Source: Copromyces sp. CBS 386.78 (lineage: Eukaryota > Ascomycota > Sordariomycetes > Sordariales > Sordariaceae). Taken from it: a stretch of 64,000 nucleotides of DNA. The stretch spans positions 124,001-188,000 of the forward strand of contig MU839144.1 of NCBI GenBank assembly GCA_030685235.1. Direction: 5' to 3'. A model generated the notes under the pieces. That model was given only the letters and a program-made list of their open reading frames with translations, was not told the origin of the DNA and did not search any database. Made by a program: the position numbers and the translations under genes. This document shows, one piece after another, positions 5,665 to 34,545 of this stretch. The first letter of the stretch is position 1; each line of letters opens with the position of its first letter.

Positions 5665-6160
5665 TTGTAAAAAGATACCGGTTATCGAAATTATAAAATT
5701 TACCGGTAACCGAAATCGTAAAGATGCCGGTTACCGAAGTCGTAAAGTTACCGGTTACCGAAATTATGAAATTTACCGGTGACCGAAGTTATAAAAATGC
5801 CGGTTACTGAAATTATAAAGATGCCGGTTACTAAAATTATAAAGATGCCGGTTACTAAAATTATAAAGATGCCGGTTACCGAAGTCGTAAAGTTGCCGGT
5901 TACCGAAGGTATGAAATTTGCCGGTCGCCGAAATTGTAAAAATACGAGTAATCGAGGTCGTAAAAATATACTAGTCGCCGAAGTTATGAAATTTGTCGGT
6001 GACCGAAGTCGTAAAAAGATATCGGTTATTAAAGTTATAAAATTTGCCGGTCGCCGAAGTTATAAAATTTGCCAGTCGCCGAAGTTATAAAATTTGCCGG
6101 TCGCCGAAGTCGTGAAGATGCCGGTTATTGAAATTATAAAGATGCCGGTTACCGAAGATT
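5665..6160 (+). repeat. 24-bp tandem array that would encode an octapeptide repeat
   Basis: About twenty imperfect units of 24 bp run through this stretch, built around GCCGGTTACCGAAG. One stretch is still open on the plus strand (5779-6090) and reads as repeated PVTEVVK-like octapeptides (P-V-T-E/K-I/V-I/V-K-M/L), drifting to a related AGRRS version at the 3' end. A period divisible by three with conserved codons suggests it was once part of a coding region. No family is recognised. Confidence 0.75.
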
Positions 6161-16000: not shown

Positions 16001-19000
16001 AATAATATAATTTACTATATCGTTTATAATATCCTATTAGTTAAGTAGTAGGTAAATATTAGGGGTGGCTATTTCGTTTAATAATTAGAGGTCGGATATA
16101 ATACGGGGTTTTTCGATTGAGCCGACTTTCTTCTAAATTACGAAGATAGGGTAGGTTAGTAATATAGGCTATTTTATAAAATTTATTTTTCTTTATACGT
16201 ATAGGCGATTATATATTCGTTTAAAAATATACGGTTTTTATATTTAAGCAGGTATATTCGAACTATACGCCGCTAGTTCTACTATTTTTTAATAAAATTA
16301 ATACGTATTTTTTCGTTTTCGGCTATAGGAATAATATTGCGGTCTCGGAATATATTGAAATTATTAACTATTTTTATAAGTATTTAAACGAATTTAACGT
16401 CGTAGTAATAAATATTTACGCTAGCTTTAATTTTTGCCTTTAGGATATTGTTTAACTTATTTAGTCCTTATAATAATAATTTAAAAGATTTAGGTTTAAT
16501 ATTTATTGCGGGGTCGGCGGTAGTTTAGTTAAATTTTTTAATAAAAATGGCGAATTATTTTATTTCTTTATTTAAGAATATAATATATTAAATTAGGGTA
16601 AGCCTAGCCTTAATAGTAGATATAAAGTACTTTAAGTCGTTAAAGTCGATTAATATAGTAATTTCGTCCTCTATATATTTATAGATATACCTTAGCGTCT
16701 TTTTTAATTTAATAATAATAGGCTAATCCGCCCAGTTAAAAATTATAATTATTTTTTATATCCGAATAGTAATTGTATAATTTAAAATAAAATTATAATT
16801 AAATTTGAAATAGTATACTTTAAGGTCGATTTAGCGCGGATCCGGGGGTAAATCGAAATACCGGATTATAATATTAATTTTCGAATACGCCGGTATTATT
16901 ATTTTAAATTTTACTATTATTTTATATAATACTACTATTATTATTAGAGCGTTATAATAAAATTTATTACCTTAGAATTGAATTAAGCGCTAACTCCGAA
17001 TTTTATAATATATACGCCCTATAACCTTTATTCTATATATAGAGTAGAAGCGTACTTCGTCGTTATAGAAATTAATATTAGTTCTATAATTTGTAAGGAA
17101 GTACGTTCTTAAAAGAAGTTTAGGTACTAAGTTCAGTATTATATTAGTTTTAATTTAGAAGTAGCTGATAATTAGCGTACTACAAATTCGTTTATTAATA
17201 TAGAAATCGAATTCGATTTATTATAAAATATAATACAAATTTATAATATTTAATATTTTATAACCATTAATAAAATATTAACGAAGGTTCTTTACGAATT
17301 AAATTATAAATTCCTTATTTATTAAAATATTAGAAATTCCCGAATTTAGGTAAATTTCGATATCTTTTCCCCTAAAATTACGCCGAATAGGGATTTAAAA
17401 AAAAGTCATTTTACGAAGAATAGTAAATAATTTACGAATTAGCGTAAGGTTAGCTTCTATTATTTATTATTCTTTAAAGGCGAAATTTATACCTTCGCCC
17501 TTATCTTCGGTTTTTAATCCGATTGAAATTAGGTAGACTTCTTAAAGGCCTTCTATAAGTATTTAATAAAATGCGTCTAATAAATCTAAAGTATCAACTA
17601 TATTCGAACTTAATTAATATTAAATAAATATAATAGCCGAATTTAATTTAATTAGAATCGACTTCGCTCAAATCGATTTAAACGCTTTTTCCGAATTTAT
17701 ATTGGAATTGGTATTATATATTAGGGATTGGTAATACGAAGCCTATTTTATAAATTCTTTTTCGCTATTAGATTCGGCCGCTATATAGTAAAAATCTTTA
17801 CGGCCGTCCTTTAATTTATCTCCTTTATTAATTATTATATATTCGGACTCGCTTATTTTGTAGACTTTTTTATTAATTTTAGCGTCGTTAAAATCGATAT
17901 AGAAGTGGCTATTATAGTAACAATTGCTATTTTTATTACGAATTTTTTTCCAAAAATATTTATAGTATTTAAAATTATTATTAATTCTACGATTCCGATC
18001 CCGATTAAAATTTGCCCAGGAATTTTAGCCATAATTATAGTAATTATCCTTTCCGTCGATACGATCCCTCTTTTATCCTTTAATACGATTAGACCTTTTT
18101 CCTTTACGAATTGTAGGACTACCCCTATAATCTTTCTTACCTTATATTATAATTTCGGCTTTAATTAAAAAATTATTTTTAATACCTTCCCTTACGAAAT
18201 AAGTATAAGATTTATTATTTAATTTCTTATAAAATATTTTAACTTTTTTATTTATAAAGAATAAAAAATTATTACGGGTATTATAAATAATTAGAGCTAT
18301 AATACCGAGGTAGAAATTAATATATATCGAATTCTAAAGACGAGTAAGGAGTTGGAAGTCTTAAGATTTGTTAATGTTCCGGGTATACCGGAATAATTAT
18401 ATAGTAAAAATACGAATCGAGGGTTCCTTTTTATTATATTTAATAGTGAATTTATTACTATTAAATTAAACGAGGGATTTATAAATTTTAAGCCCAAATT
18501 ATTCGATTATACGTATTAAGAATTTAATAGCGGTAATAATAATTTTATATTTATTATTATAAAATAATTATTTAGTTTACTAGTTAAAGGCGGCGTTTTA
18601 AAATAGATCGGGGGTTTTTTCTAATTATAAGGCGCGCCGGGCCGGGTAGAGCTCTATAGTATAACGGACGTACTCCGCCTATAAATAGGGGTCCGAATAG
18701 TATTTTATCTTCTTAATAAAGAAAGATTTAAATTCGTTAAAAATATTATAATTTAAATTAAATTAAAATAGCCCTATATTAATAGGCTTCTACTAATTAT
18801 CCGAACGGTAATATATCGTAAAATCGGATGCGGGTAGGGTTCGGCTATTAGAAGGTATATCGGGGTCGCCGTAAAGGATTCTATCGTTTAGGGGCTTATT
18901 CGGCGGTCTTAAAAGGTTGGCTAAAGGCTTTCCTCTATTTTTAACGCCCGTAAGGGTATTAAAAATAATTAGAGTAGTATTAATAATAATTATTTTATTT

Positions 19001-22600: not shown

Positions 22601-22847
22601 TAATACCGTTGAGAGGGTATTGTGAAAGCACAGTATGTGTGTTGATTGAAAGTGTGTGAATTCGTGATCTGGGAAAGATCCAGAGAGGAGAGATCGCGAT
22701 GGTCGATGACCATATGTGCGCGATCCTTATCTAATCTACAGGACCCACCTTTAGGTGGGGAGGCGACCGCGGCAGCAGTGCGGCCGTGGCTAGTTAACGA
22801 CTGTCATGCTGACAGGTGACAACACCAGCGATACCAATCCGGTATCA
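22601..22847 (-). repeat. Gypsy-B 3' LTR (247 bp)
   Basis: It is bounded by TGATACC and GGTATTA in element orientation. Internal short palindromes are CCCACC-TTTA-GGTGGG, CTGTCA-TGC-TGACAG and GATACC-AATCC-GGTATC; the last makes up the LTR tip. Position 22795 is T where the 5' LTR has C, inside GTCAAC to GTTAAC, a CpA-to-TpA change. Confidence 0.96.
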
Positions 22848-23040
22848 AATGCCGGCCGCGAAGAGAAAACACCACTGACCTCAGTGGTAAACTAATGTAT
22901 ATGTGTGAATACCCTCACTTCTTTCTGGGTCTCAAGCTCCTTCCATGGGATGGAGTCCCTTCCGCCTCTACATCCTCCGCGAAAGTTACCTTGCGACTAC
23001 GACGGGGCTTCGATGGATCGCGACGTCCTCCGCGACGTTG
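22848..23040 (-). other. Gypsy-B 3' untranslated region
   Basis: 193 bases between the gag-pol stop and the 3' LTR. In most LTR elements a purine-rich primer tract abuts the 3' LTR on the coding strand. Here the last 20 coding-strand bases are GC-rich and mixed, and the nearest purine-rich stretch is about 60-90 bases away (22905-22935). No gene is present. Confidence 0.6.
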
Positions 23041-26000
23041 CTAGTATTCCTTTAATAATCCCTTAGCATTGCCCAGGGCTTCTTCCGGCAACCACTTGTT
23101 GTGCTCGTGACCAAACCTAGTCCACTTGACGAGGTACTTCCATCCTCCCGTTCTGGGGTTCAAGTCGTGGTTCAAGATGACGTCCATTTCCCACTCGCCT
23201 TCATCGTCTGAGCCGATCTGAGTGTCCTCCACTGGTCCAGGGGGAGGCTGGGTCCGGTCAAACGGGTCCTCTCCCCGAGGTCCGGCCTTGAGATGGGCGA
23301 CTGAAATGACCGGGTGGATGCCCGCCATTTCCGGGGGGAGCTCGAGTTTGTAGGCTAGTTTGCCGACACGGGCGACGACGCGAAATGGGCCGGCTCTTTG
23401 TTGTGAAAATTTTCGAGAAGGACGGCCCGGAAGGTGATACCCCTTGTGCAGCTTCAGGAATACTTTGTCACCGACTTGGAATTCGCGGAGCGGGTGTCTG
23501 CCGTCGTAGCGCTTCTTAGCTTTGGCTGTAGCGAAATCCATGGCCAATTGGGCATCTTCTCTCAATCCATCTCTCAATGCCTTGTAATCCTTCGTCACGC
23601 TGGGCACGTCTTTCCTGGCTATCAGATCCAGTGGTCCCAAGGGTTTAAACCCGAACAGCTGCTCGTGGGGGGACGACTTGATCGGTTCTGAGTACCCGCT
23701 ATTGAGGTTCCATTGGAGAGCTGGCAGCAATTCTACCCAGTTTGACTCAGGTTTCATGAAGTAGTGGTACTGAATGGCGATTTCGACGTCTTGATTTCGT
23801 CGTTCTGCCAGGCCGTTGCCCTGGGGGTGGTAAGCTGTTGTCATCAGTAGCTTGGTGTGCAAGGCTGCCCACATCCCTTTCCAGAGCCTGGATGTAAACT
23901 TCCTGTCTCTGTCGGACACGATTGCTTGCGGGATTCCCCAATCGCCTAATAGCAACTCCCTTGCCAGGATGGTTCCCCAATCTTCCGCTGTATAGGTGGA
24001 GTGCCCGGGAATGAGGCGTGTGCGCTTGGACGTGTAATAAGTTACGGGCATGAGGGTGTTGAAGAAGTTAAAGCCTTCTAAGTGCCAGGGGGTTCCAATA
24101 GCTCGAACTTCCGGTAGGTCGGTAATGAAATCGAGGGCAATGGTACGCATTGGCAGTGTATGTTCTGGATTGATGGGTTGATAGTCGCCTGTGGTGGCCT
24201 CCCTGTCGGTTCGGTTTAGCTGGCATGTCGGATAGTGACGCACGTATTCGGTCACCTCGTGGGTCTTTCTTGTCATTATATAATCCTTCAGGTCGTAGAG
24301 CATACGATCTCGGCCGAAATGATGTTTTTCGTCGTAGATTATCGCGAGGATGGTCTGCACCATACCTTTAGGTATATATAACCGCCTTGTCTGGTCTGAC
24401 GAGACGTTGTACAGTAGTCCGTCTACGATCTCAAATGGGTAACCGGCACTCGAAACGACGCCATCGACCTCGGTGGCATTGCGGTGAGCTTTCACGTCTT
24501 CTATGATGGCCGCGTACTTCGGGTCTGATCCGTATGCCTGTATAAAATCCCTCTTCAAGGCTGGGCTCATCTGGGCTTCCGCGCGAGTAAACCAGATCTG
24601 ATCCAGTACTGGGACTTCGTCTGAGCGGCCCATTTCGTCCCCTTCGGCTTTTAACCTGCTCAAAGCATCTGGAATGAAATTCATTTTCCCGGCAATGTGG
24701 TGAATCTGCAGATTGTACTGTGAAAGGTAGATGGAAGCATTGATAAGTCTCCGATTTCCTCTATCCGTGGACGAGGTGCTCAGGGTAGTCTGCTCGCAAA
24801 TCCCCTTCGTTGCTGAGTGATCGGTCAGAACGATGACAGGGTGGTTTGAGGAGTGCAGAAGAGTCCGTAGTCGCTTGACCGCCCAGATTAGACAAGCTAC
24901 TTCCATCTCGGAAGGACCATATCTCATCTCAGCCTTGCTGAGGGCCTTGCTCAAGAACATGATCGGTTGGACTTGGTTGGCGGGGATAGCCATGCCTGGT
25001 GCCCATGCGAAGCCGTCCTTCAAGTGAAATAGGACTACTCCGTATCCTCGCTCCAGGGACCCGTCGACCTGTAAAAATACTTGCTTATCCGGGTCTAGGT
25101 GGTACAACTTCATGTTCTCACAAATAGCTTTCTGAACCGCCTCAAATGCTGCCTTTTCCTCGGGTGTAGGTAAGTAGGTCGTCTTTGCGCAATAGTGTGC
25201 CCGCTTGGCTGGGTTACCTGGCGCAATAGCCCCTGACTTTCGTCCTGCGGCTAGAAGTTGAACCTTACGGTTCTGGAGAGGCTCTGAAATCTTACCGTAG
25301 TAAGGGATAAGGTGGCGAATGAATCCCGAGCTTCCGATGTACGTCTCTAATGCCTTGAGCGTTTCCGGGAATACTAGCTTACGGAAGGCCTCCAATCTCT
25401 CGGCTGTGGTCGTTAGTCCCAGGGCATCAACACGGAAACCCAATAGTTCCACGTTCGGGTACGCGATGTAGCTCTTCTTGGGGGAAAGGACCAAGTTGCG
25501 TGACGCGAATAACTTGAAAACCTTTTCCAAGTGTTCCAGGTGCTCCTCCAAAGAGTCCGAGAAGATGATAATGTCGTCGATGAAAGCGCGGCAGAAGTGA
25601 GATATTGCTGCCAGCAGTCGATCTATGAATCTTTGCACGTATGCGGGGGAGTTACGGTAACCCATGAGGGCTACGTTCGGCTGTTCCAGACCACGCGGGC
25701 TAATGAGGGTAAGCCTATCTCTGTGCGGGGGCCATACCAAGAACTGGTAAAAGAAGGCTGTCGTATCGATGATGGTGATAAAGGTTTTTCCGCGCAATGA
25801 AGCAATGACTTCGGACTGGAGGGGCAAAGGATAGTAGTCTGGAACCGTGACCTTGTTGAGGGCCCTCAAGTCGATGACCACTCTGCCCTTCTGTTGTCCT
25901 TTGACTGTACGCCACACAACGAAGACGGGATGGGCGAAAGGGGTAGCCCTGTTTACCCAGTCCATTTTGCCCTGTTCGTGAAGCGTGCCAAAAACCTGAT

Positions 26001-29000
26001 CTAGCACCTCGCGATCCTTCTTGCTCAGGGGGTAGGAGCGGGCGTGGATGCGCTGGTTTTGCCATCCTTCCACTAATGGGATACGCATCATATCCTCCTC
26101 CTTCATCTCGATTACTCCTCCTTCTTCCCAAAGACTTGGGTATTTATTGATGAGCTTCTCGATCTTGGACACCAGAGACGGATTCTGAGCACAAATGTGG
26201 ATCCCTTGCTTGGTGACCTTCTCAGGGACGTCGGCGGAGGTTTTCAAGCCTAGTGGTGAATGCTTATCCTTTGATTTAGGCTTGTCGGGCTCGGGTTTGT
26301 CGAGGGTGACTTGCCTTGCGCTAGGCTCGGCGCCTACCTCTTCGGTAACTTCCCATGCCATGGTTTCCGGATCTTCGTCCATAAGCTCCTTGAGGATCTG
26401 TTCGTCAGTCATGTCGTTGATGTACGCATACCGGTCATCTTCCTTGACGCTGTCCTGATCCTCAATGACGTTGAATGCCCGTAGAATGGGGACCTCGAAT
26501 TCGGTGTTCAGAGCCGAGGGTGCTCTGGGTGCCCTGGTTGCCAAGTCAGCAATCATACCCTGGGATAGAGCTAAGTATCCGCTGTCCGTAGCCTCGGTGA
26601 TGCTGCCGATATGGAATCGTTTGGGGATAGTCACGACGCCGTTAGTCGTGTTGTTGACGAACACAACTTCTGGAGCCTTGGAATTGATCACGGCGTTGGC
26701 TGCCAAGGCGTGCCTGGAATTCAATATAAAACATCGGTCCTTTGGTAACTCCTTGAAGTTGACGGGAATGTACCCAGATTGGCCAGGCAACAAGGTCGTT
26801 TTGGACGCTGTCGTGACCTTCCTAATATAAGGTTTCGCGTTTTCCTGAGCCACGAAGTCGACGACGAAGTCGTCGAGGTCTCTGAACGTGATGGTACCGG
26901 TTTTGTAGTCCGTATTTGCTGCGTATAAGTGCAGGAAATCGTTGCCGAATAAGATATTGGGTTCGAGCTCGTCTATAACCCATCCTCCTTTCTTGAATTT
27001 CATTAGAGTAGGCTGGCCTTCTTTGTTAAAACCTTCCAAGTAAACCTCAAAGGTGGCCCACTCGTTGATCTTGACAGGCTTTCCTCCCACTCCTCTGACT
27101 TTGGCGTGCCTTGTTTCGATGCTGTGCGTCAAGGTTTCCAAGAAGGGTCTACCGATCAAGGTCCTTCCGGTTCCTGGATCCATGCAAACTTCGCTTGTCT
27201 TGCCTTCCGGACGTGGGCGGGCGTTCACCCTCATGTGCGTGAAGCTAGAGATTGGGCTGTTATCGACCTCGATCAGTGCCATCTGCGGGGCTTCTTTTAC
27301 TTGAGGGGGAAGGGATGACCTGGTAATGGGTTCGGGGGAGACACGAGGGATGGGGCGCGGTTCTTCTCCCGCGATTTGGCCTGCTTGGGCCAGTTTACAG
27401 GTTTTTAGATGTTTGAAGAGGATATTGCGTGACAACAGCATCTTCCTGCAGTAACCACATGTCCGTTGCTCCGGCGCCAATGGGGACGGTGTTCGGATAC
27501 GCTCTGCCTTTACGGCCTTAGGGGTTGCACAAATTGCCTTGTGCTGCTGCCTCTTAGCTTTGGTATTGATACTCTTGTGACATTTGCGGCATCTCTTCGT
27601 TAGGACCTTCGTAACGAGATGCACGTTCATCACGGACTTGTCGTCGTCGGAACTATCGTCTGGGGCTTCGGTATCCTCTGCCACATGATTAGCCTGGTAA
27701 GACCGGCGTTCATGGTCGAGATCCCTGTCGCGGCTTCTGTCGCGGCTGCGGTCCCGGCTCCTGTCACGGTTTCGGTCGTTATTGTTGTTGGCTCCGTCGC
27801 GGTTGCGGTCTCGGTTGTCGCGGTTGTCGCGGTTGCGCTCTCCTTCACGGCTGCGATTACGATTGCGGTCTCTGTCCCTGTCCGAGCGATTGCTTCGGCT
27901 GTCGCTTCGGCGGTCAGACGTGCCTCGGGTTCTGTCGCGCCTGGAATCATTGGATCCGGATTTGGCGGCTGCGATCAGTACGGCGTTGGCCCGGGATATT
28001 TCCGTCATGTAATCTGACAGCTCCTCCCTGTCGAGCGGGGCTCTGAGGTATTATTTCGTACGTAGGTCGAGGCTTGACCATATCTGCATTATAATACCGT
28101 ACCAATTTGATGCCGAGTCTTGGCCTATAGTGCCTATTGCTCGAGCATACCGAAGCTGCTTTTGCATATACAGGGTGAGAGCTCCTTCGTTCTCGTTGAT
28201 CTTATATAGCGAGAAGTAGCCTCGGTTGAACTTGGCCGTGGCCGTGGCGGCGTTGGGCTTGAATCGGTCCACCAGTTTGTTGAGTAAGACGTAGATTCCG
28301 TCCTTAATCCAGCTCTTCTTGCTGAACGCATCAATTTCGGTTGACCACCAGACCTTGGCAGATCCTCCCAGCAGGGTTTGGAACATTTTTGCCATTTGGC
28401 GGCCTATTTTGCTGTCGGCCCCATTATCTACGAAGGATAGAACTTGCTCTCGGAAGGCATAAACATCCGTGTAGGTGTCACCCTTCGGGTCGGTAATGAT
28501 GCCGATGTCGTCGGGGTCTGACGCTATAGGGTTGAAGAAGCCGACTTCCTCTCTTTTAACCTTACAGTATTCTTCCTCATCTTCATCTTCGGTTAGGTCG
28601 AGATCATCCTTCCGTGATTTAATGCTTCGACCGCCACCTCCGCCCTTTCTGCTGCCAGAGCTGCCTCCACCGCTTCCTCCGCCCGGCTTTGGGAGTCTGA
28701 TGTCCTCTTCTTCGTGCCTGGACGCGGCTCGCGCGACGCGCACCTGGAAGGCGGGGCGCTGGGATTGCCGGTCGCTTACCTAATCCTCTACGGAGAGTGG
28801 CGCACGCTCCTCCCTGACTGGGAATCCCTCCGGCCGAGTGAAGGCATTTTAATGATTACGGGGATCTAAGGAAGGGTTGGCGAAGATATGTGTCGTTCTG
28901 ATGGGATAGTTGGGATCATTCCGTGGTTGTGCGGAGAAAGGGGCCGAGTTTGGTTGAGCTGGCCTGGTAAAAGGCATTGAAGCTGCTCTCTCTGCTCCCT

Positions 29001-30321
29001 GCTCGGCATGTGCCGAATGGAACCGGCTATCCTGGACAGGCATCGAGGTTGCTCGAGGAGGGGCGCCGCCGACGTGCGGTACTGGGAGCCTGCTTCGAGT
29101 AGAGACTCTGCTGTGGACTGACCGAGGGGATTCGGGCACATCTTCCAGCGTGGTGCGAAATTTGTCGCGTGGCGCGGTCTTGATCGAAAGTCGTTCACGC
29201 AATGTCGATTTCGGTGTAGATGGTCTCTCGCTCTGAGGTTTGTACGGAGCCGAAGGCTCGCCAGTGACTTCGTTGAACATTGGGTTTAGGGGCGTATAAG
29301 GATTGCCGCTGAGATTCTTGGCCACCACTTCTATGACCTCCTTTTCCACGGCACGGCGAATGCTATTGACTTGCTTGGCGTAGTTTTCTGATGCTATTTC
29401 CTGCGCCTTCTGCAGTACCTTAACAGTTTTCTTTAGCTCAGCTGTCTGATATTGAAAGTTCTTCGTCTATTGCTGGAATGACTCTTTGTGCTCTTTAAGA
29501 GATGCCTCTAAGAGTTCTTTTTGCTCTTGTACGTGCTGGTCCAGCAGTTCTCCTTGCTCTTTGAGCGATAAGTCGACTTGGTCTTTGAGAGCCTCTGTGA
29601 GATTTTCTCGTTCTTTGTCCTATGCTTCTTCGATAATGTCGGCCATTTCTGCCTTGTGAGCTTCGAATAAGGCTAATATTTTGTCTTCGTTATCGTACTG
29701 GGTTTTACGTTGAGCGGCTAAGTCGGATTTGAAGGATTCCAATAAGGCCTGCGTAGCTGACAACTTGGAGGTCAATAGTCCTTCCTGCCTGTCGAGCTTG
29801 TAGATCACGCTGTCGTGGTTACGGTTGATCTTGTCATCTAGGTATTCGACGGACTCCCGATTTGCTCCAAATTTAAGAGGGCGAAGCAGTAGGGCCTGGT
29901 CTGGGTCTGGGCCAGCGCTTATGGTGTGCGAATCTCGATCGTAACGTATGTTTAAGACTGGTCTTGTGGGAGGTTTCGGCATATTAGGGGCGCGCGGGAG
30001 CATGTGAGCATGCGCGCTTATGGATGGGTATCGAACTATATGGCTCGGGTTCGCGACGGGCGGGGTATGGATGCCTATAGGCACGTTGAGGGGTCTTCCT
30101 GCCGGGACGGTGTCGGTTGTCGCGCAAGTTTCGTCGTGATCGCGACGTGGAGGGTCGGCGAGCTCGGCTTCGTATAGATCGGCTTCGCTCTCGAGATGGG
30201 TTGTCTCTTCGAGAATGTCGTGATGTTCTTTTGTACGAACGGGACTTATATTGGCGGGAGAAGTAGGCGCGATGTTGCGCGAGCCGTCTGGCGCGTCGGA
30301 TTCGATGAACGAGCCGGGCAT
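23041..30321 (-). pseudogene. Gypsy-B gag-pol, one 2427-codon frame with five in-frame stops
   Basis: All parts lie in one phase with no frameshift. From the ATG at 30319-30321: a coiled-coil region (about 29750-29370), a Gag domain (about 28500-28050, with AFREQVLSFVDNGADSKIG), an Arg/Asp-Ser RNA-binding region, and two C2H2-like fingers (residues 138-161 and 182-204 counted from Met 28008). Then follow protease with DPG at 277-279 (usually DT/SG), RT with FIDD at 809-812, RNase H D982/E1036/D1063, integrase D1293/D1366/E1402, and a C-terminal chromodomain (about 1608-1655, YLVKW...W). Stops are at 29620-29622 TAG, 29467-29469 TAG, 28849-28851 TAA, 28780-28782 TAG and 28051-28053 TAA; each is one C-to-T step from CAG/CAA. 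The last divides gag from the intact 1655-residue pol frame, which begins at an internal Met. Integrase zinc-site residues 1225 and 1259 are Tyr where His and Cys are expected. The product would make and integrate element cDNA; full-length translation is blocked unless stops are read through. Confidence 0.93.
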
Positions 30322-30441
30322 AACGGTGATTGTCTAGTTCTACGTACGTTATGAGCACGAGTTCAAGTGATTCTTACGACGAAATCAACCGGGGTATTAG
30401 GGAAGAAAATGCGTGATCATGAATCGGATAGGAAGCGGATA

Positions 30442-30789
30442 CCACTGCGTACCCAAGTTCGGCAGTGGGGGAAACCCTTAGCATCCAGGGTCTTGCGACA
30501 TTGGGATCCGGGTGGTGATAGACAACGGGTACCTGAATTCGCCGAGTCTGGGGGTGGAGCAGTGTGGTGATGTGTTCCTTCACGGGTACCTGAATTCGCC
30601 GTGTTGGAGGGGAGTTGAATCTTGCGGGTACCTTGAGTCGCCGCAAGAGGGATAACGATCGCGTACCTTGGTCGGCGATCGAGGGAGAGGGGGATAGATG
30701 AGGAAGCCGTTGACTGAATGAACAGGACGACTGGTGCGATGCGGAAAGGTGGTTTTTAAAGTCGCGAGAGTACCTGAATTCGTCTCACG
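30442..30789 (-). other. Array of six stem-loops with a shared loop in the Gypsy-B leader
   Basis: Plus-strand coordinates, stem/loop/stem. 30442-30468: CCACTGC / GTACCCAAGTTCG / GCAGTGG. 30521-30549: AGAC..CGG / GTACCTGAATTCG / CCG.GTCT (internal loop). 30581-30603: CACGG / GTACCTGAATTCG / CCGTG. 30621-30647: CTTGCGG / GTACCTTGAGTCG / CCGCAAG. 30656-30681: CGATCGC / GTACCTTGGTCG / GCGATCG. 30763-30789: CGCGAGA / GTACCTGAATTCG / TCTCACG (one mismatch). The loop is conserved while stem sequences differ and still pair, which argues for a selected structure rather than simple repeat copying. They lie between the primer-binding site and the gag start, so in the genomic RNA (minus strand) they fall in the 5' leader, where packaging, dimerisation or translation signals sit. 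The function is unknown. Confidence 0.85.
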
Positions 30790-30903
30790 TACCTTGGAGA
30801 TGCTTCTGCCGAGGAAGCGATTTTCTGTCGACTATCGTCGTGCCTTTTCCAGAAGGCGATGGCGATAAATGGTGTGGTGTGGTTCGGTCGAGCACTGCGA
30901 TCT

Positions 30904-30919
30904 GCAGTTGCAGCTACCA
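30904..30919 (-). promoter_or_regulatory. Gypsy-B primer-binding site
   Basis: Two bases inside the 5' LTR the coding strand reads TGGTAGCTGCAACTGC, complementary to a tRNA 3' end (…GCAGTTGCAGCTACCA). Spacing and the TGG start are typical. The tRNA is not identified. Confidence 0.75.
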
Positions 30920-30921
30920 TT

Positions 30922-31168
30922 TAATACCGTTGAGAGGGTATTGTGAAAGCACAGTATGTGTGTTGATTGAAAGTGTGTGAATTCGTGATCTGGGAAAGAT
31001 CCAGAGAGGAGAGATCGCGATGGTCGATGACCATATGTGCGCGATCCTTATCTAATCTACAGGACCCACCTTTAGGTGGGGAGGCGACCGCGGCAGCAGT
31101 GCGGCCGTGGCTAGTCAACGACTGTCATGCTGACAGGTGACAACACCAGCGATACCAATCCGGTATCA
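30922..31168 (-). repeat. Gypsy-B 5' LTR (247 bp)
   Basis: Matches 22601-22847 at all but one position (C at 31116). It would carry the promoter for the genomic RNA; no clear TATA box is visible on the minus strand. The right flank GAGGG at 31169-31173 repeats the left flank. Confidence 0.96.
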
Positions 31169-32040
31169 GAGGGATTGTATTCGAATTGCGAATAGGGTTT
31201 AATATTCGTATATAAGGGTATTATTACGAAGACTATTTAAGACTTTTTTAAAACCTTTTTACTTAAGATTAATTTAATATTGTTAGATAATTAATTCGAT
31301 AAAATATTTAAATGGGTAGTAAGTAGTAGTACGGCTGTAATTAAATATAATTAGGAGGGGTTAATTACTATATAGTAAAGTACTATTAATAAGGGGGAAT
31401 TAATAGAAATCGCTTATAAAAATAATGTTTATATTATTAAAAGGTTTACTAGTATATTTAGAAAAAGCTATACGCAACTATTATTCGATATAGAATAAAC
31501 GAATAAGGGAAATTATAGATTTTTCGTTAATAATAATGTATTTGTATTGTTTAAACGTACTTTAGAAGTATTAGATATCGCTAGTATAAATAGCGAATTC
31601 TTTAAAAATAGTTAAGGATAAAAAAGGAAGGTAGAATAGTATATGGAATATAGAGCTATTAATATTGTTGGTAGCGATTTTAATAGGCGTACCCCGGGTA
31701 ATTAAAAACGGCTTTCTAATTTAAGAAATTATAAAATTAAGGCGCTAATTAAAAATATAGATAAAGTAGGATTTTTTAATACTACTTTTATTATTAATTT
31801 GAAAATATAAAGGTTTAATTTTAAACGGAAGTTTTGATTATTTATAATATAGAATTTATTGGAAGTACTTTATATATAAATTAAAAATAGCGTACTATAT
31901 AAAATTTAGACTATTAATAATATTTTAAGAAATATTAATAATAATATTAAAGAAAGCGTTTTTTTATTATACTTTAAATATAAATTAATATTTATTATAA
32001 TTAACGAAAAGATATTAGAAATTGTAATAACTATTCTAAT

Positions 32041-32455
32041 GAGAAACGCTATCTGCACCGCCGCAAAACGCTATCTGCACCGCCGTCTAAAACTTTAATA
32101 AAGTATAACTTGGGCAAATAGTAAGCTACAAATATAAAAGTAGTGTTTTTGAGTTCGGTAAAGTTCTCTCTATTATAATATATTTACTAACCCTTCCACC
32201 GCCTCTCCCATCTACTATTTTAGAAGATATAAGAAATTCTCAAATAAAGTTTTCTTTTTCTTAAACTATTAGTAGGTTAGAAGGCTGTGGTAACATTTAA
32301 GAGCCAACCTTAATACTATTAAATAGAGTAGAAAAATACAAAAATTCCAAGCCTACTTTAAGACTATAGACTCTTATTTTGGTAGAGTAACTTTAGATTT
32401 TATTTTTGGACGGCGGTGCAGATAGCGTTTGGCAGCGGTGCAGATAGCGTTTCTC
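32041..32455. mobile_element. 415-bp MITE with long doubled terminal inverted repeats (hAT-like)
   Basis: The ends are inverted repeats of about 47 bp: GAGAAACGCTATCTGCACCG... on the left (32041-32087) and its near-perfect reverse complement on the right (32409-32455). Within each arm the word AAACGCTATCTGCACCGC occurs twice in tandem, about 21 bases apart. ATTCTAAT directly flanks both sides (32033-32040 and 32456-32463), an 8-bp target duplication as made by hAT transposases. Because T precedes and A follows the element, a 10-bp-longer TIR pair with a shorter duplication is also possible. No coding capacity. The element keeps CpA/TpG inside RIP DNA, so it inserted after RIP or was too short to be recognised. 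It splits the long plus-strand ghost frame in phase. Confidence 0.88.
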
Positions 32456-34545
32456 ATTCTAATTATAAGTAAAATTTATTTTATAATTACTAAAATTAAA
32501 TAATTGAATAGTATTAATACCTTCGTTAGGACGTTAAGTAGCGAATTCCTATTATTTTTTTTAGATAAAATCGTTTTAATTTTTAAGAGGAATTTCATAT
32601 TTAAGCTCGGGGTTAGGAAGGGCTTTATCACTATAATAATCGCGGAAATAAGTGCAATCTTCAATATAATATTAAATATAATATTAATATATAATTCGAT
32701 AAATGTAGAATAATTGACTATCGATAATTAAAAGATTAGAGGGATTTATATAGGAATAGCTAAATATAAATTTAACCCAATACTAATTTTCGTATTAAAA
32801 TTCGTAAGTAGGATTATATTTGTAAATAGGAAAGTAATTAAGAATTCGGGGTTTAGAACGAACGAAGTAGCGCTAACGACTATTTTTGAATTCGTATATT
32901 ATAAGGACTTTAAAGTAATTTATATCGGTAAGGTAATTAGTATTTAGGTATTATAAATGCTATAAATATTTATAGTAAAGAAGATTAATTTAAATTTATT
33001 AATTTTTAATTATAATAATAATACCCGTTAATTATTCTATTAAGGGGCGATAATTAATATTAATAACGATCTAAATATTATTATAGAGGGGAAAACTAAG
33101 TAAAATCGTATAAACTTTTTAAATAAATTAGTTTCGTTCTATAAAGAATTTATTTATAAATTTAGTAATGAATAACGTAATAGAATTAGTACGAATAATA
33201 TTAAGAAGAATTTAAATAATAATATTCTAAAAGGTTTAATTCTATTATTTATTTTTGGAATAATATTTAGTAATATAGTATAAAACGGTATACGTACTAA
33301 TATATAATATAATATTAATATTAACTATTTAACCTAGAATTAATATTATATTATATTAATTTAGCTAAATATTATTCCGAATACTATTAAATATTTAATA
33401 TATAGGGTTAAAATTGCGCGTAAGGATAGGTTCGTTATAAAGGGGCCGCGGAAAGTAAAACCGATAAATGGTTTATTAGCCCGGAAGAGCCGGAACAGAG
33501 CCAGCGGATTAAATATCGGCTATAAGGAGTAGTTCTAGACTAAATAGAATAAGCGGTTAGCCTATAGTATTATTAGGAATTAAAATAAAAAATTAGGCAA
33601 CAGGTTAAATAGGAGGTCGATAAATAACCCTTTAGTAGTAAATAGGATTAATATAATACGTATAGCATTATACCTGATTAATAATATGCGAGAGAGTATT
33701 AAAAGTAAGCGGGACTTAATTGAATTATAGATTATTATTAAATACCGAATATAAAACGTTCGTATTATATTAATTTTGAGCCTTATTAAGCTCTAGATTA
33801 AAAATTATAATATAATAGCCCTATAAACGAGCGAACTCTTACCGGTTTTCTTTAAATTCGAAGTTAGGGGTTTGGAGCCTATTAATTTAATAAATATTAT
33901 ATTTATAATTAGTACTACGATATTAGAATTTAAAGTAGTTCTAGTAATTTATAATACCGAATTTAAAAATAAGGACGTACTTCTAGAATAAGGCGAATTT
34001 ATTAATAAAATAGTAGGTAATAATATAAAGATTAAATATAATATTTTAACGAAATATATGAATACAGGTATTATTATTAAAAAGCGAAAATTATTTATTA
34101 TAATTAGGTATAAGGCGAGCGAAATTATCCTAATAATTATTAGTAGTATTAAATATTATAAAAAGGGTAGGTATTTCGAAAATTCGAATATAAGTATTAA
34201 ATTTATAGCTATATTAAATTTAGAATGTACGAATACTAAATAAATCTTTTATAAATTTAATAATAGAATTAATTAAACTAAAAGTACGAAGGGAATTTTA
34301 TTATAAGAATTCGATTAAATTCTTAAAAATTCTTAGGTTTTAAAGATTAATATTATCCTTACGAAATTTTTAGTACTTAATATAGTAAATACCTTTTTAA
34401 TAAGTTTTACAATATATTAAAATATTAAAAGTAATAAAAATAAATTAAGGATATTAGGCAAAATAATTATCTTTCTAATATAAAGCGTATTTAAAATATT
34501 AAACGAAATTAATACTTCGCTTATAGGGCGCTACCCAATTAGCCG

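Follow-up and report, generated by a model that had tools for sequence, protein, structure and literature searches.

The closest described counterparts of the hairpins reported here are found in capsid viruses, retroviruses and LTR retrotransposons. As far as the excerpted sources go, MS2 and STNV have multiple packaging signals spread over their genomes, consisting of several stem-loops with a shared loop motif (PMC6281560, PMC3593212), and in STNV the loop matters whereas the stem sequence does not (PMC3593212). In gamma- and alpharetroviruses, hairpins sharing the loop GACG are involved in RNA packaging (PMC516450). Among LTR retrotransposons, the packaging determinants of Ty1 are placed largely near the RNA 5' end and Ty3 is said to require the Gag zinc finger (PMC4974528, PMC11381356); one review notes that the places at which Gag binds Ty1 and Ty3 RNA have not been defined precisely (PMC4974528). 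BARE2 has no Gag of its own and its RNA is still packaged, consistent with conserved dimerisation and packaging signals (PMC3735527), and the non-coding LTR element VL30 can retrotranspose (PMC4859993). In the excerpts of these sources, no repeated hairpin family is described for Ty1 or Ty3 (PMC4974528, PMC11381356), and no constant-loop hairpin array for BARE2 or VL30 (PMC3735527, PMC4859993).

Here, we describe such an array in the leader of a Ty3/Gypsy element of Copromyces sp. CBS 386.78, within a 64-kb stretch of DNA (the window). Similar to the MS2 and STNV signals as excerpted (PMC6281560, PMC3593212), the array comprises a number of stem-loops that have a loop motif in common and, as in STNV, are free in stem sequence. 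In contrast to those signals, the loop is 12-13 nt long and unrelated in sequence, and the hairpins, as candidate protein sites, are clustered in an LTR-retrotransposon leader. With the retroviral hairpins, as far as PMC516450 is excerpted, the array has a shared loop motif in common; the window loops are not GACG tetraloops of 4 nt but 12-13 nt of the form CGA(N3-4)RGGUAC, repeated in six to about twenty copies. Unlike the excerpted descriptions of BARE2 and VL30, it is the presumed borrower that has the larger array (15-21 loops, against six in the coding family of the window). Among the matches listed in a search of titles and abstract openings of the open-access literature, no constant-loop hairpin array in an LTR retrotransposon was described.

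The array and its host element

All six hairpins are housed in one Ty3/Gypsy element, which is flanked on both sides by the 5-bp duplication GAGGG and has the following parts:

22601..31168, minus strand: Ty3/Gypsy element
30922..31168, minus strand: 5' LTR, 247 nt
30907..30919, minus strand: putative primer-binding site TGGTAGCTGCAAC, judged from its placement adjoining the LTR and its TGG start
30322..30921, minus strand: leader, from the 5' LTR to the gag start, 600 nt
28054..30321, minus strand: gag-pol frame, first part, interrupted by in-frame stops in the window copy
23041..28050, minus strand: gag-pol frame, remainder, encoding finger-like motifs, RT, RNase H, integrase zinc domain, Tf2-type SH3 and chromodomain
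22601..22847, minus strand: 3' LTR, 99.6% (99.595%) identical to the 5' LTR

The element is classified as a chromovirus because of its RT, RNase H, Tf2-type SH3 and chromodomain (RVT_1, RT_RNaseH, SH3_Tf2-1 and Chromo, all above the Pfam cut-offs), together with an integrase zinc domain just under its cut-off; RT, RNase H and integrase follow in this order between the LTRs, with the chromodomain C-terminal. Gag begins with MPGSF at 30321, matching the start MPGSY of protein P0116 of Neurospora sp. IMI 360204. The frame of the window copy has in-frame stops at 29622, 29469, 28851 and 28782 and at 28053, the end of its first part, and is uninterrupted in another copy of the family. Self-priming by complementarity of primer site and LTR was considered and rejected, the longest match being 7 nt and two short words being found.

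Elsewhere in the window, a bHLH protein encoded nearby shares 97% identity with one from Pseudoneurospora amorphoporcata, which places the host in the Sordariaceae. Two inverted arms of 102 nt at 31998-32498 are 78% complementary; each contains a 22-23 nt unit twice in tandem (AAACGCTATCTGCACCGCCGCA and its near-complement), and the region resembles the termini of a small DNA element. In an AT-rich stretch at 5670-6157, a 24-25 nt unit with GCCGGTTACCGAAG is repeated in tandem about 20 times.

A first-pass annotation of the window had called six hairpins with a constant loop in a Ty3/Gypsy leader, in the interval from primer site to gag. A strand scan and a reading of the stems confirmed them there, at 30442-30789 on the minus strand, with the RNA loop CGA(N3-4)RGGUAC carried on stems that differ from one another and pair:

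30442..30468, minus strand: h1, perfect 7-bp stem CCACUGC/GCAGUGG, loop CGAACUUGGGUAC; same in the second copy of the element
30521..30548, minus strand: h2, stem with a 1x2 internal loop, loop CGAAUUCAGGUAC; same in the second copy
30581..30603, minus strand: h3, 5-bp stem CACGG/CCGUG, loop CGAAUUCAGGUAC; same in the second copy
30621..30647, minus strand: h4, perfect 7-bp stem CUUGCGG/CCGCAAG, loop CGACUCAAGGUAC, z -4.0; same in the second copy
30656..30681, minus strand: h5, perfect 7-bp stem CGAUCGC/GCGAUCG, 12-nt loop CGACCAAGGUAC, z -2.7
30763..30789, minus strand: h6, seven pairs including one G-U, loop CGAAUUCAGGUAC; same in the second copy

The earlier stem calls were thus borne out for the three perfect 7-bp stems and the one of 5 bp, h6 having one G-U pair and h2 the 1x2 internal loop. 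The 20 identical nt common to h2 and h3 suggest that these two probably arose by duplication. On both strands of the 64-kb window, CGA(N2-6)RGGTAC matches seven times, six of them in the hairpin region of the leader. A lone loop word, CGAATTTAGGTA, lies outside any cluster at 17341-17352 on the plus strand (C66:141341), and an extra CCAAGGUACGU without the CGA half stands immediately before h6 (30787-30797).

An Rfam covariance search of positions 29500-31500 gave one weak match (E up to 5), outside the hairpins. One hairpin-type pattern had 0 matches in IMG/VR viral contigs, and its nine single matches in prokaryote genomes were taken as chance. The reading of GGUAC as a splice site was dropped by eye.

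Loop words and short elements across the genome

The 49.8-Mb genome contains the loop word CGAAYTTRGGTA 81 times and the reversed word 18 times, and 61 of the 81 occurrences fall in clusters of two or more on eight contigs. Similar loops, CGAAYUURGGUAH, are present in other elements of the same genome. Twelve leaders and arrays were compared: the window family (C66 and C159), a sister family (C17, C134, C56 and C8), a third family (C98 and C62), and four arrays of a short LTR element (C35, C25, C226 and C123). This spread is a lower bound, drawn from the first places of 380 matches and from 103 scored candidates out of 477. RT matches 4-5 kb downstream of the hairpins identify C17, C134, C8, C98 and C62 as coding elements; among the matches listed, none lies near the C56 cluster. 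Since ten loci with loop words outside the arrays gave only two model matches (E up to 2, one at E 0.013), the word usually stands without a stem. A 501-base stretch of C21 had no model match, and a stretch of C193 was dropped as not being a leader.

The strict loop word reads in the sense direction in 81 of 81 cases across the 12 leaders and arrays, with no antisense occurrence. In none of 80 strict loops is base 13 a G; it is A, C or T, and a G at this place would be able to pair with the C that opens the loop. CGA on the 5' side and RGGUAC on the 3' side, the bases that the window loops have in common, could presumably form a G-A pair and an A-U pair with a bulged G, like the bulged-G (sarcin-ricin, loop E) module. 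The avoidance of G fits a folded strand, RNA or DNA alike. Single-stranded DNA could also form the stems, and the primer site is near, as expected if the hairpins acted at the DNA level, either as sites for a DNA-binding protein or as structures in single-stranded cDNA during reverse transcription. The uniform direction of the word speaks against such a role, although shared descent would also yield it, and we regard a DNA-level feature as very unlikely.

The short element is represented by four loci with 15-21 loops each, two of them complete:

C35, about 3.3 kb: paired LTRs 91% identical, GAGGC on both flanks, 21 loops
C25, about 3.1 kb: paired LTRs 85% identical, ATAAT flanks (less telling in AT-rich sequence), 20 loops
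C226: 15 loops, the 5' LTR being the only one found in the stretch read
C123: interrupted, 19 loops

C35 and C25 have the LTR end, primer-site region and leader start in common with the coding elements, and the array of C35 begins about 200 nt past the primer site. In tblastn searches with pieces of the window gag-pol, C25, C226 and C123 gave no match, and the C35 stretch gave one weak match outside the element. Because the short elements are mutated by RIP, which may have destroyed reading frames, the absence of gag-pol is judged by size (in C35 and C25) and by the lack of homology. With paired LTRs, a target duplication and no detectable coding, their frames possibly lost to RIP, C35 and C25 are non-autonomous LTR retrotransposons. 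Their two insertion sites with different duplications suggest mobilisation by the proteins of a relative. In C123 (L086, C123:28500-38400), the array of the short element is split by an apparent insertion, which has a 148-nt direct repeat (97% identical) at both edges.

The same loops bear on dimerisation, one of three functions proposed in the first pass, in which the hairpins would be kissing loops joining two genomic RNAs. GAATTC palindromes are present in three of the six window loops, and excerpts on Ty3 propose a dimerisation site in a palindromic hairpin (PMC11381356). Yet a self-complementary stretch of about 6 nt is found in some loops rather than in general, a 6-nt palindrome occurring in only 7 of 75 short-element loops, and palindromes leave the invariant CGA and GGUA unexplained. 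Dimerisation by loop palindromes is thus not a general explanation, and we consider it quite unlikely that the hairpins are dimerisation sites.

Pairing, folding and conservation of the stems

Do the differing stems pair more than expected? In an alignment of five window hairpins (h5, whose loop is one base shorter, being left out), 85.7% of stem cells pair versus 53.8% in shuffles (0 of 500), and six of the seven pairs are changed on both sides (1 of 500 shuffles). A model built from these five recovers h5 at E 0.008. When arms were swapped among the six window hairpins, 16 of 5000 permutations attained the observed pairing. Across 113 loops picked by the loop alone, setting aside C39 (which served the comparison of copies), C91 (in which the hairpin part is missing) and loops that were not 12-13 nt long or too close to an end, own arms form 5.50 of 7 pairs versus 3.49 for swapped arms (0 of 5000). 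Taken by group, each of the four arrays of the short element and the sister family show the excess (0 of 5000 in every case), whereas there is none in the third family, which is mutated and has six loops (2392 of 5000 permutations).

Tandem duplication without function could also produce such arrays: segmental duplications that include hairpins are found in three of them (C35, C25 and C123), and two window hairpins have 20 nt in common. In answer to this objection, one hairpin was kept per stem, and the resulting 25 distinct stems still pair far above swapped arms (5.20 of 7 versus 3.29; 0 of 20000 permutations). RIP, in turn, could change G-C into A-U on both sides of a stem; with stem types made blind to C-T and G-A changes, the remaining nine pair at 5.67 versus 3.30 (0 of 20000). 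An alignment of 20 distinct rows from several elements, in which rows were fitted to the structure and some chance matches are included, has 79.7% of cells paired versus 56.3% in shuffles (0 of 500) and a covariation score above shuffles (0 of 500), and its pairs changed on both sides are not above shuffles (234 of 500). The pairing of distinct stems and the hairpins left unchanged between two diverged copies (see below) contradict neutral duplication, which we find barely credible.

Predicted folding varies with the context allowed. Folding of the 600-nt leader as a whole is unexceptional (z -0.47), since 38 of 100 shuffled sequences do as well, and the hairpins folded singly have z below -2 in only two of six. 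With a span of 40 nt, a mean pairing probability of 0.5, taken over the best four pairs, is reached by four of the six hairpins in the window and five of six in the second copy; with unlimited span, the figures are two and three of six. Few hairpins are predicted to form in RIP-mutated copies at a span of 40 nt (3 of 21, 2 of 15 and 5 of 20; in C134, 1 of 6).

The second copy of the window element, C159, is 89.7% identical over the leader and 93% over the LTR. In this one comparison of two copies, none of 158 hairpin positions is changed versus 38 of 430 outside (p = 5.6e-6, gap columns set aside), and the stretches between hairpins alone have 18 of 188 changed (p = 2e-5). In the RIP-mutated copy C39, C-to-T and G-to-A substitutions, the kind that RIP leaves, make up 56 of the 69 differences from the window; hairpins and the rest differ alike (18 of 123 versus 51 of 288, p 0.48), and therefore the hairpin stretch is not simply resistant to mutation. 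From C91, a third copy of the window family, the part of the leader with the hairpins has been lost. The stems thus still pair in the second copy, and the repeats do not have the identical flanks of a recent duplication. The earlier proposal of a selected structure in the RNA sense is supported by hairpins that stay unchanged while their flanks differ and by own-arm pairing above swapped-arm pairing, with the third family as the group without excess; the hairpins most likely represent a selected RNA structure.

Comparison of copies also bears on a switch suggested in the first pass, in which TCTC at 30783-30786 would pair with GAGA at 30797-30800, and more broadly on whether the hairpins control gag translation. 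The alternative pairing survives as UUUU/AAAA in the mutated C17; in C159 and C39, where UCUC has become UCCC, three of the four pairs remain, so that the switch is weakened in two of three other copies compared. Although the hairpins sit just upstream of gag, the largest arrays belong to elements without detectable gag-pol, and translation control fits poorly with short elements that have 15-21 loops yet no gag-pol homology; either role is highly improbable in our estimate. Beside h6, AAGGTACGT is kept in C159 and C17, and C39 has AAAGTACGT.

A candidate reader and the proposed function

In the Gag of Ty3/Gypsy chromoviruses, a CCHC knuckle, CX2CX4HX4C, is usual but not universal. The gag-pol frame of the window has none, in contrast to Ty3, which according to the excerpts has one. 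Instead, two finger-like motifs follow an Arg/Asp-rich stretch of the frame:

27529..27591, minus strand: first finger-like CX2CX12HX4C motif, candidate hairpin reader
27397..27459, minus strand: second finger-like CX2CX12HX4C motif, candidate hairpin reader

A protein database search with the finger region returned one relative, P0116 of Neurospora sp. IMI 360204, which keeps all finger ligands and has 15 of 21 and 21 of 21 residues identical. Searches of PDB and Pfam gave weak zinc-finger matches only, with no Pfam cut-off reached, and the predicted structure of the finger pair is of low confidence (mean pLDDT 57). The finger region is found at 12 places in the genome, including C66, C159, C39, C91, C134 and C98.

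A sister element on C148, whose RT is 63% identical to that of the window, is missing from these 12 places, and reading its DNA reveals both fingers, with 5 of 21 and 10 of 21 residues in common with those of the window. The hairpin model finds nothing in its leader, which contains hairpins of its own (L089, C148:18800-21300, reverse strand, about 1240-1700 of the reverse complement). Four of them, arranged as two tandem pairs, have the loop UGUYURG and a single-base bulge on the 5' side, three pairs beneath the loop (four if U-G closes it); two longer ones have a loop near UGAUUUYUCCUAUC, with stems likewise differing. The z score is below -2 in five of the six. The MS2 motif, as excerpted, likewise has a 5' bulge, with an A in it (PMC6281560). 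In this single case, and as a correlation between sequences, the other loop goes together with diverged fingers, as an element-encoded reader would predict.

The hairpins of the window, with their constant loop and with stems that change and still pair, are conserved between two copies and have counterparts in elements without detectable gag-pol. We favour the reading, with a probability of about 0.58, that they are a multivalent RNA packaging signal bound by the element's Gag. In each hairpin, a stem of arbitrary sequence would display the common 12-13 nt loop; Gag would bind several loops per transcript, probably through the basic stretch and the two CX2CX12HX4C fingers, and would draw the bound transcript into virus-like particles. 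Because the short elements have no detectable gag-pol yet carry LTR ends, a primer site and 15-21 loops, we propose that a relative's Gag packages their RNA; the array would be retained as what these elements need in cis. Gag as the reader, packaging as the outcome and an advantage of having more hairpins are what we infer. Of the three functions named in the first pass, packaging fits best; dimerisation through palindromes, translation control and the suggested switch are poorly supported.

In the main alternative, a host protein rather than Gag would bind the hairpins and act in cis on export, localisation or stability of the unspliced transcript. All the structural and conservation evidence fits a host reader equally well, and the need in cis would extend to non-autonomous elements; excerpts on Ty1 and Ty3 state it to be unknown whether export, retrosome trafficking and packaging depend on the same sequences (PMC4974528). 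The different loop of C148 in the same genome disfavours this alternative, since a single host reader would not predict it, and we hold a host reader to be unlikely.

If Gag is the reader, a wider and more tentative possibility is a packaging code, in which each family would have its own constant loop on free stems and Gag fingers to match. Gene-less elements would then multiply the loop (15-21 versus six) to compete for the Gag of their hosts, and the sister family would use a second word.

How Gag chooses its own RNA in LTR retrotransposons is an open question, for which the candidate sites described here are short, repeated and defined to the base. The genome also offers natural variants, including weaker stems, the other loop of the sister family and elements, apparently gene-less, in which the sites are about three times as numerous. 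Binding, if confirmed, would link RNA recognition, family specificity and parasitism between elements.
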